Shown in pieces: positions 2,383-4,840 of a stretch of 34,361 nucleotides of DNA. Below the pieces are notes generated by a model. It was not told the DNA's origin. It did not search any database and was given only the letters and a program-made list of their open reading frames with translations. A program made the translations under genes and the position numbers. Every line of letters starts with the position of its first letter. Positions within the stretch are counted from its first letter, which is position 1. This stretch comes from Candidatus Cloacimonadota bacterium (GTDB lineage: Bacteria > Hydrothermota > E44-bin80): assembly GCA_004375965.1 (NCBI GenBank), contig SOIS01000176.1, positions 1-34,361 of the forward strand, in the 5' to 3' direction.

Positions 2383-3108
2383 CTATATCTTGAAGAGAAA
2401 TGATGCAGTTATGAAACCCTCAACCTTTACCGTCCCTATTTTCGCTGGGTTAAATTTCATAGTTTTCGCAGAGGCAATAGAAAGTGAATCAGCCTCAGAA
2501 GATAATGATTTCGTAACTCTCACACTCTTTGTATCTCCTGTTTCGTCAACTACAATATTGAGAATTACTGTCCCCTCAATATTTCGAGAGAGAAGTTTTT
2601 CCGAATAGGAGGGGGTTTTAATACTCACAACCTCTGGCGGTGTGTATTCATCAATACTATCCCTGAAAGGAATTGAAAAACTCACGGTAACACTTTCCCT
2701 CTCTTCTGTAAGCATTATTTTCTCAATCTTTATCGGTTTATATGAAGGGATAGGGGATATCATAAACCTGTAATCTCTGAAGAGAGAGAAGATAGAAATG
2801 TTAATAATGATTGCAATAAGCACGGCAACTCTAATGGTTACAGGGAACCAAACCATCTCTGGTAATGGTTTAATTTCAGTTACTCTATCAATAATTTTCA
2901 ATGGAAGATAAGAATCAACCTCAACCCTTTTTATACCCTTTATCATCTTTTTTACATTTAATAGTGTATGATATTCTTCTCTGCAAATGCTACAGGTTTT
3001 AAGATGCTCCTCTACCCTGTTCATTACCTTCTTATTAAGCTCTCTATCAATATATGCAGAGAGTTCAGATTTTATCCTTTCACAATCCCTTTGTTTACTT
3101 GAAGGCAT
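2383..3108 (-). CDS. Membrane anti-sigma factor fused to a TonB C-terminal domain
   Basis: This 241-residue protein has an N-terminal zinc-finger anti-sigma (zf-HC2/ZAS) domain with the H-x3-C-x2-C motif at His35, Cys39 and Cys42 (EEHLKTCSICREEYH). A single transmembrane segment follows at about 90-110, and the C-terminal 85 residues look like a TonB C-terminal domain (EGTVILNIVVDETGD, then MKFNPAK in place of the usual W-K-F-x-P). The finger should hold the neighbouring ECF sigma factor in the cytoplasm while the TonB-like domain faces the periplasm. The linker between membrane and TonB domain is only about 45 residues and not proline-rich, so it probably cannot span the periplasm as an energising TonB would; a sensor role is more likely. 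It overlaps the sigma gene by 14 bases, which indicates translational coupling. Domain calls are from recognised motifs; the role is inferred. Confidence 0.8.
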   Translation of the reverse strand: MPSSKQRDCERIKSELSAYIDRELNKKVMNRVEEHLKTCSICREEYHTLLNVKKMIKGIKRVEVDSYLPLKIIDRVTEIKPLPEMVWFPVTIRVAVLIAIIINISIFSLFRDYRFMISPIPSYKPIKIEKIMLTEERESVTVSFSIPFRDSIDEYTPPEVVSIKTPSYSEKLLSRNIEGTVILNIVVDETGDTKSVRVTKSLSSEADSLSIASAKTMKFNPAKIGTVKVEGFITASFLFKI

Positions 3109-3655
3109 CTTCTCTCTCCAACCTTTTTTTCATCGCCTCTCGTGCCCTGTGGATAAGTGATTTCACTGCTTTTTTTGAAATTTTCATTACCCTTCCTATC
3201 TCCGCGTACGAAAGTTCTTCCCATTCTTTCAGTATCAAGACCTCCTTCATCCTTGGCTGCATTTCATAAAGAACCTTTTTAACAATACTCTTTTCTTCAT
3301 CTTCTTTGGCTCTTTCCTCCAAAGATAAAACAGGATCACTGACTGAATCAATCAGCTCCCTATTATATCTTTTTGTAAAGAGTGACACAAATCTTATTCT
3401 TTTAAGGTTCTCCATTTTCATACGATTTATTGAGAGATTCCTTGCAATTCTCATAATCCAGACATGAAAACTTTCTTTTCTTCTCAATCCCTTGAATGAA
3501 CGGTATGCCCTTAAAAAGGTATCTTGTGTTAAGTCTTTTGATAGTTCATAATCATTGACAAGTGTATTTATATAATTAAAAACCCTCCTGTAATTATCCA
3601 TCACAAGTTTCTCAAATGTCTCTTCCACATTATTTCTCTCTTTATTTATAGACAT
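3095..3655 (-). CDS. ECF-type RNA polymerase sigma factor
   Basis: The product is 186 residues, the usual ECF length. Region 2 (about residues 15-82) contains the core-binding and -10 recognition signature, with DLTQDTFLRAYRSF and then ESFHVWIMRIARNLSINRMK. Region 4 (about 124-175) carries a helix-turn-helix (LSYAEIGRVMKISKKAVKSL) for -35 recognition, followed by HRAREAMKKRL. It directs RNA polymerase to a stress- or envelope-specific regulon. The gene overlaps the anti-sigma gene downstream by 14 bases, the standard arrangement for a sigma/anti-sigma pair, and lies 93 bases downstream of the C25-type peptidase gene on the same strand. The start is an ATG with only a weak ribosome site. Confidence 0.92.
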   Translation of the reverse strand: MSINKERNNVEETFEKLVMDNYRRVFNYINTLVNDYELSKDLTQDTFLRAYRSFKGLRRKESFHVWIMRIARNLSINRMKMENLKRIRFVSLFTKRYNRELIDSVSDPVLSLEERAKEDEEKSIVKKVLYEMQPRMKEVLILKEWEELSYAEIGRVMKISKKAVKSLIHRAREAMKKRLEREDAFK

Positions 3656-3748
3656 TTTAATTGATAAAAGGTTCTGTGTTTTTTAATTTCGAATCATTTT
3701 ACTAATAAGTTTTTCAGTAATTATGCTATCTATTTATCCCAAAGCAGC

Positions 3749-4840
3749 CTAAATTCCCTTTTTTGTAAATCCGAGAGATGGGTCACCGTAGAACTGAAAT
3801 TCTAATAGTGTTTTCTTGTCGTCATCATCAAGAAATCCCTGCGTTCTCACCATCTTCTTTGCAAAATCGATTTTTGCATTTCTCAATGCATCTCCAAAAG
3901 GGACTCCCCTTTCCACGTACTGGAAAAAATATTTGCAAAGAAGGTCAGCTTCCATTGAAGGGGGAGTAGGTGGTCCGTATGCGATGGCAGTAGAACCTAC
4001 AAACCCAATAGAACCCTGAGAGAGGAATTTGAGCGCCATTGACTCCTCTGTTCTCTTCTTGAAAATCCAGGCACCATAGCAAGCTTCCGTAAATACACAA
4101 CTTCTTTTGAGTGCTGGAACTGCTTCAGGAGTGATTGCAACAGGATAGATAGGAAAATTGGGAGCATCACCAAGTGCCTTCTGACCATACCAGTTCGGGG
4201 TTTCTTTCGTACCATGAAGATTAAAGTATAAAAATTGTCTTTTTAGCCATGTTTTTTTAATGTTCTTAGCATTAAGAGGTGGAGAAACCTTCAATTTCTT
4301 CACGTCACCAATAACCCTGAAAACTGCCTTGGAAGCTTCCTTCCAGATAGAAGCAGAATAACCAAAACTTCCCTTATATCCCTCTTGTGCTTTATAGTAT
4401 TCTATTGTTTGTTCGATAATACTCAGTAGGAAATCTTCCGCTTTTTCATGGGAGTCGGGAATCCTTCCAAAAGCCCTCTGGGGTATTAGAAAATCATCGT
4501 CGCGAGATGCATAGGGTGCATCGGTTAATATCACCTTATCTTCATCATCAGTTGGATTTTCGACTTTATAAAAAGGAATTATGGAGTTACCTCCTATTAT
4601 AAGAAAAGTATTCTCTTTCTTAGAATCCTTATCAAGGACATCCAAAAACTTCTTAAATCTTTTTGGTTCAACCCTCTTCTTAAAATCGAACCCATTCAAT
4701 ACACCATTGTGTTCATCAATAAGAAACAGCCTGCCACTTTTTACTCTGACAAGTTTCTTTACAGCCTTTATTATATGAAATGTCCCTTTTTTCCCATACT
4801 TTCTCAAAAGCCTTTTTTTATGTGTAATAACAAAATCCAT
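3749..4840 (-). CDS. C25 (gingipain-like) cysteine peptidase domain protein without signal peptide
   Basis: The 363-residue protein shows the landmarks of the C25/caspase-like clan CD fold. There is a GRIP motif region (residues 125-128, after a DDD stretch), a catalytic His in FNLHGTKE (His209), a catalytic Cys in FTEACYGAW (Cys254), the conserved IGFVGSTAIAYG strand, and a terminal FQFYGDPSLG block as in C25 peptidases. Unlike gingipains it has no signal peptide, no transmembrane helix and no sorting domain, so it should be cytoplasmic. The family cleaves after Lys or Arg in its best-known members, but the specificity here is unknown. It lies upstream of the ECF sigma and anti-sigma genes on the same strand, so co-expression is possible. 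The start ATG has AAGGAA about 5 bases before it. Confidence 0.75.
   Translation of the reverse strand: MDFVITHKKRLLRKYGKKGTFHIIKAVKKLVRVKSGRLFLIDEHNGVLNGFDFKKRVEPKRFKKFLDVLDKDSKKENTFLIIGGNSIIPFYKVENPTDDEDKVILTDAPYASRDDDFLIPQRAFGRIPDSHEKAEDFLLSIIEQTIEYYKAQEGYKGSFGYSASIWKEASKAVFRVIGDVKKLKVSPPLNAKNIKKTWLKRQFLYFNLHGTKETPNWYGQKALGDAPNFPIYPVAITPEAVPALKRSCVFTEACYGAWIFKKRTEESMALKFLSQGSIGFVGSTAIAYGPPTPPSMEADLLCKYFFQYVERGVPFGDALRNAKIDFAKKMVRTQGFLDDDDKKTLLEFQFYGDPSLGFTKKGI

Follow-up and report, generated by a model that had tools for sequence, protein, structure and literature searches.

Results

Architecture of the anti-sigma–TonB_C protein

The window analysed in this study is a stretch of DNA of 34,361 nucleotides, the source contig (C27) of which belongs to a 2.29-Mb genome that is 95 % complete. 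The gene under study occupies positions 2383-3108 of the minus strand and encodes a protein of 241 aa; the plus-strand frame over the same positions is interrupted by many stops. Our domain searches reveal that this protein carries a zf-HC2 domain (class I zinc-binding anti-sigma), one predicted transmembrane helix and a TonB_C domain. The zf-HC2 domain covers residues 9-43 (2980-3084, minus strand) and is matched by Pfam with an E value of 5.9e-9 and 36.3 bits against a cut-off of 22.2. Its candidate zinc ligands, C9 together with H35, C39 and C42 of an Hx3Cx2C motif, are invariant in all four orthologs. The predicted helix at residues 92-110 (2779-2835, minus strand) is the sole strongly hydrophobic stretch between the two domains in the hydropathy analysis and is marked by a conserved WFPVTIRVAxLxAI block. 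The TonB_C domain covers residues 165-241 (2386-2616, minus strand), where Pfam reports an E value of 1.3e-10 and 42 bits against a cut-off of 24.6, with positions 2-79 of the 79-position profile aligned. The protein is also matched above the cut-off by NCBIfam TIGR01352, 'TonB family protein' (E 1e-8). PDB profiles of TonB match the TonB_C domain, and a Pfam scan at E<=1 gives no FecR or STN match anywhere in the protein. Since both domains score over curated thresholds, their assignment is far beyond chance, and the combination of finger, single membrane helix and TonB-like domain in one protein, as given in the preliminary description, is upheld.

Structure prediction gives a less complete picture. 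An AlphaFold model of the full protein from a four-sequence alignment is confident for residues 1-50 only (pLDDT 64-87), a region that includes the zf-HC2 domain. The isolated C-terminal domain, modelled from four sequences, adopts a beta-beta-alpha-beta (EEHE) order at low confidence (pLDDT 43). When this model was searched with Foldseek, the best 20 PDB matches were all TonB or a TonB homologue, with a best E value of 0.035 and a TM score of 0.57. The model is weak alone and agrees with the sequence evidence for TonB_C. The TonB-like structure expected earlier is favoured by the PDB matches, but the model behind them has low confidence; no confident non-TonB fold was obtained.

The adjacent ECF sigma gene and neighbouring genes

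Directly upstream of the anti-sigma gene, co-directional with it and overlapping it by 14 nt, lies a gene for an ECF sigma factor (3095-3655, minus strand), which encodes 186 aa from the annotated ATG and matches Pfam Sigma70_r2 (1.9e-13) and r4_2 (2.6e-13). These co-directional overlapping genes are kept together in four genera, which supports the earlier pairing of the anti-sigma protein with the adjacent sigma factor. Further upstream, at 3749-4840 on the minus strand, is a gene for a C25-like (caspase-like) protein with no obvious signal peptide, in which His209 and Cys254 are invariant. On the other side, at 538-2196 on the plus strand, lies a gene that converges on the anti-sigma gene in all four genera; its product has BNR repeats and a sorting tail of the T9SS type.

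Conservation within WOR-3

Two samples were used for comparison, a phylum sample of 147 WOR-3 genomes and a family sample of four genera (G000-G003, 9.5 Mb). Each of the three further genera sampled from the family has a full-length ortholog of the anti-sigma protein, with identities of 71, 58 and 56 %, and the MAGs that carry these orthologs are assigned to candidate division WOR-3 or Candidatus Cloacimonadota. The zinc-ligand candidates, the transmembrane block and the TonB_C core are conserved across these orthologs, and the TonB_C domain shows a mean column identity of 76 % within the family. Where the contigs are readable, the four genera have a common gene order, the C25-like gene, the sigma gene, the anti-sigma–TonB_C gene and the convergent BNR/T9SS-tail gene. 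Because full-length orthologs occur in three further genera, a frame error, a chimeric contig or another assembly artefact is ruled out, and the zf-HC2/TM/TonB_C architecture is confirmed as real. A search of genome contigs with the single anti-sigma sequence gave no match, and the same search with the four-row alignment found the same three MAGs only; a plasmid search returned ordinary TonBs only.

More distant anti-sigma proteins of the zf-HC2/TM/TonB_C-like type were found in two more WOR-3 families, f8 and f36, where they have the same layout and adjoin a different ECF sigma. A full-length profile comparison between the family anti-sigmas and the f8/f36 type gives an E value of 2.4e-18, to which the zinc domain contributes much; the C-terminal domain alone is matched more weakly, with a probability of 80 %. 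A profile of the four sensor domains matches loci L046 and L064 at 1.7e-4 and 4.6e-3, respectively. Pfam makes no TonB_C call in the f8/f36 anti-sigmas, and their C-terminal domains are probably degenerate TonB_C domains. The domain pair, whose co-occurrence in other genomes had been named as a check, is represented by orthologs in four genera and probably by distant relatives in two more families. Our survey of this architecture covered WOR-3; other phyla, too, may have proteins annotated with zf-HC2 plus TonB_C.

Several related proteins were observed during this survey. In a second set of zf-HC2/TM anti-sigmas (L046, L048, L054-L059 and L064), the C terminus bears a shared block, IVRAIVDSxGxVVKVATGN...PERDT, for which Pfam gives no match. 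Where these loci were read, a sigma gene lies upstream and is itself preceded by a gene for a conserved secreted protein of the MYEMSTTTEGMMGMGGGE type. In one ORF (L003, G000:C9, 1-1737) a solute-binding protein of family 5 (SBP_bac_5, E 7.6e-67) ends in a TonB_C domain (4.6e-16), and open frames comparable in length (685-735 aa) with TonB_C matches occur in many WOR-3 genomes. Another ORF (L040, G059, 907-1833) fuses a cyclophilin-type peptidyl-prolyl isomerase to TonB_C.

A promoter-like motif common to the sigma operon and an orphan tonB gene

Upstream of the sigma gene, the sequence CAGAACYTTT-N12-TGTCT occurs in all four genera with identical spacing. ECF promoters have an AAC-type -35 and a GTC-type -10 element, and it is plausible that this motif represents such a pair. 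In the window, the putative autoregulatory ECF promoter reads CAGAACCTTT-N13-GTCTA (3649-3676, minus strand); the evidence for it consists of its conservation with exact spacing in four genera, genome scans and an alignment of six sites. The annotated ATG of the sigma gene overlaps the putative -10 element (3628-3655, minus strand). If the motif serves as the -35/-10 pair, transcription would start inside the annotated sigma ORF, so that a GTG start would be required. An in-frame GTG at 3628, located 24-27 nt past the ATG, is conserved in all four genera and gives a protein of 177 aa, and this GTG is more likely than the ATG to be the start.

The pattern GAACYTTTN(13,14)GTC, derived from the sigma sites, has 35 matches in the four genomes, a number not above that of a reversed-pattern control, suggesting that the regulon is very small or that the promoters of other members are divergent. 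Two of the 35 matches, in G000:C106 and G002:C167, lie just upstream of tonB at the same locus, which contains LptC-like, LpxL-like, tonB and prepilin peptidase genes (the neighbours being named by eye), with a good Shine-Dalgarno sequence downstream of the motif. A 15-base form of the motif has five perfect matches in 9.5 Mb, at three sigma and two tonB genes, against 0.06 expected by chance, this form having been written after the tonB matches were seen, with extra bases that are common to the sigma sites. The fourth sigma site differs from it by one mismatch. Of the near-matches with one or two mismatches whose loci were read, most lie within genes or antisense to them and none recurs in two genomes, and a larger regulon based on them was rejected. 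No receptor gene was found behind the motif, nor was a perfect motif found in the f8/f36 anti-sigma loci or in the tonB loci of other families.

The tonB locus is readable in two genomes only, G000 and G002. G001 has a truncated LpxL ortholog of 80 residues and G003 has distant paralogs only, so tonB in these two genomes is probably unassembled, not absent. The two motif-bearing tonB genes are 45 % identical, and in a small TonB_C tree their C-terminal domains are not sister to each other; their orthology thus rests on position. The same tree places the sensor domain of the anti-sigma protein on a separate branch and gives no support for its recent derivation from the C-terminal domain of the orphan TonB. 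In our view the orphan tonB is quite probably a target of the ECF sigma factor, which would itself read the motif, and a regulon made up of the sigma operon and this tonB gene is well supported. The preliminary description proposed a compact route from envelope state to an ECF regulon; the promoter evidence points to the orphan tonB and the sigma operon as that regulon.

Features that separate the protein from an energising TonB

The linker of the anti-sigma protein was rightly described as short: it is 49 aa long with 12 % proline, whereas that of the orphan TonB in this genome has 88 aa and 22 % proline. At the start of TonB_C the PxYP motif is degenerate, reading PSYS at residues 166-169 and PSYS or PSYT across the four orthologs. 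Neither exbB nor exbD was found beside the anti-sigma gene and no ExbD on the whole contig, although such proximity is a weak criterion, since orphan TonBs exist. The genome has five ExbD genes, with ExbD on contigs C94, C148 and C240 and ExbD-linked TonBs also on contigs other than that of the anti-sigma gene, which indicates that a Ton motor exists independently of the anti-sigma protein. The short, proline-poor linker, the PSYS sequence and the lack of adjoining exbB/exbD argue for a sensor with a TonB domain and not for an energy transducer, in agreement with what was first proposed. A restriction of the sensor to a partner near the inner membrane, deduced at that time from the short linker, does not follow, as 49 residues fully extended could span about 170 A.

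Discussion

The likeliest identity of the protein, judged from its domains and gene context, is a class I (zinc-binding) membrane anti-sigma factor that would bind the sigma factor encoded just upstream and would use a TonB C-terminal domain as its periplasmic sensor. Our best explanation as a whole, in which we place middling confidence, is that this TonB_C-sensing anti-sigma factor controls its own operon and the orphan tonB. In the resting state, the cytoplasmic domain would sequester the sigma factor. Occupancy of the TonB_C domain would then change, either through an outer-membrane protein bearing a TonB box or through pairing with the C-terminal domain of TonB, so that the domain would sense demand, by way of TonB boxes, or supply, by way of TonB. 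Such a change would release the sigma factor, probably by proteolysis of the anti-sigma protein, a step we infer from other membrane anti-sigmas such as FoxR (PMC11637429). The freed sigma factor would act at the CAGAACYTTT-N12-TGTCT promoters of its own operon, encoding sigma and anti-sigma, and of the orphan tonB, and the supply of one TonB would be adjusted to need, provided that the feedback has the sign, and the signal the direction, supposed here. That the TonB_C domain senses Ton status is a possibility that we rate slightly below even odds, and we suggest still more tentatively that it acts as a TonB mimic measuring free TonB partners or TonB itself, to which the sigma factor would answer with the orphan TonB, matching supply to demand. 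The degenerate PSYS might mean that TonB-box binding has been lost, and the cytoplasmic zinc site itself could be the sensor, responding to redox.

Other explanations have to be weighed against this one. The protein may be an ordinary class I anti-sigma factor in which TonB_C is a generic anchor or a protein- or peptidoglycan-binding module serving general envelope stress, with the tonB promoter either one of several targets or coincidental. Such a role would suit a domain that is promiscuous in the phylum, where it is also fused to a solute-binding protein and to a cyclophilin, and it would suit both the replacement of PxYP by PSYS and the divergence of the f8/f36 C-terminal domains beyond recognition by Pfam, which suggests loose constraint. 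We nevertheless regard it as rather unlikely, since every perfect match to the promoter other than those at sigma lies on tonB, in two genera, and the sensor domain is strongly conserved in the family. The complete TonB_C profile match would also fit a bifunctional TonB that energises a receptor and carries an anti-sigma domain as well, but the short linker with its low proline content, the degenerate PxYP and the lack of adjacent exbB/exbD make this very improbable.

A TonB-dependent receptor (TBDR) might instead provide the signal, as in cell-surface signalling. The layout of a cytoplasmic anti-sigma domain, one transmembrane helix and a periplasmic domain is the same, and three TBDRs are present in the genome. 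None of them, however, is on the contig of the anti-sigma gene, and the genome's single STN match, in a 537-aa frame on C245, is separate from the contigs of the three TBDRs; in a genome 95 % complete the absence of an STN-bearing TBDR is not absolute, but this lone STN does not support classical signalling via an STN-bearing transducer. Moreover, the periplasmic part of the anti-sigma protein has 131 aa, compared with about 215 for the CCSSD of PupR (PMC7186176), and no receptor gene stands behind the motif. A TBDR-dependent mechanism is accordingly improbable in our judgement. Cleavage of the anti-sigma protein by the adjacent C25-like protein, releasing the sigma factor, would be in keeping with the position of its gene, which immediately precedes sigma in each of the four genera, and with the candidate His209/Cys254 dyad. 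Yet homologs of this protein occur in 42 of the 147 WOR-3 genomes, and in the seven loci read outside the family they have unrelated neighbours and no adjoining ECF gene, while the putative sigma promoter sits between the two genes; we find this role hardly credible and have rejected the C25-like protein as part of the module.

If control of the orphan tonB by a TonB_C-sensing anti-sigma factor is correct, a sensor that copies the business end of the regulated protein controls the gene for that protein, by a simple titration of TonB against its outer-membrane partners. To our knowledge, such a regulatory principle has no counterpart in the Ton system. As both a promoter motif and a candidate target are at hand, the question of sensing can be tested directly in a heterologous host.

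In the open-licence literature searched, neither a description of a zf-HC2–TonB_C fusion nor work on WOR-3 ECF signalling turned up, and the comparison below is with the nearest known systems. The protein resembles class I zinc anti-sigmas such as RsrA, RsiW and the ASDI families (PMC7406223) in its zf-HC2 domain with Hx3Cx2C, its gene that follows and overlaps an ECF sigma gene, and its single transmembrane helix. The domains to which ASDIs are fused vary and are specific to each group (PMC7406223), so that TonB_C would be one more sensor on a known type; the word 'TonB' does not occur in the text of that study. With TonB itself (energy transducer, PF03544) it has in common the C-terminal domain family, one transmembrane helix and a C-terminal domain predicted to be periplasmic, and it departs from TonB in its N-terminal anti-sigma domain, its short linker that is not proline-rich, the lack of adjoining exbB/exbD and the PSYS in place of PxYP. 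FecR, PupR and FoxR (PMC7186176, PMC11637429) are likewise single-pass anti-sigmas with a cytoplasmic anti-sigma domain and a periplasmic sensor, so the statement in the preliminary description that these parts are separate proteins in FecI/FecR signalling has to be corrected: the FecR-type anti-sigma also joins cytoplasmic, transmembrane and periplasmic parts in one protein, and the difference is that its periplasmic end is STN-like (PMC7186176) and here it is TonB_C. The sensors of these proteins contact a Ton-linked protein and release occurs by proteolysis (PMC7186176, PMC11637429); they consist of CJM and STN and read the signalling domain of a TonB-dependent transducer, whereas in our genome no such transducer was found. 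The nearest functional parallel is PUMA3 (VreA/VreI/VreR) of Pseudomonas aeruginosa (PMC2729926). There, an ECF/anti-sigma pair receives its input from a TolA/TonB-like domain at a C terminus, exbB2 and exbD2 belong to the regulon, and the tonB homologue PA0695 is part of the cluster. This likeness is at the level of description, and in PUMA3 the TonB-like domain is on the separate periplasmic VreA (STN plus TolA/TonB CTD) and not on the anti-sigma factor. The PUMA3 operon, moreover, combines a sigma factor with a receptor (PMC2729926), unlike the locus described here, where the sigma gene is followed by the anti-sigma–TonB_C gene.
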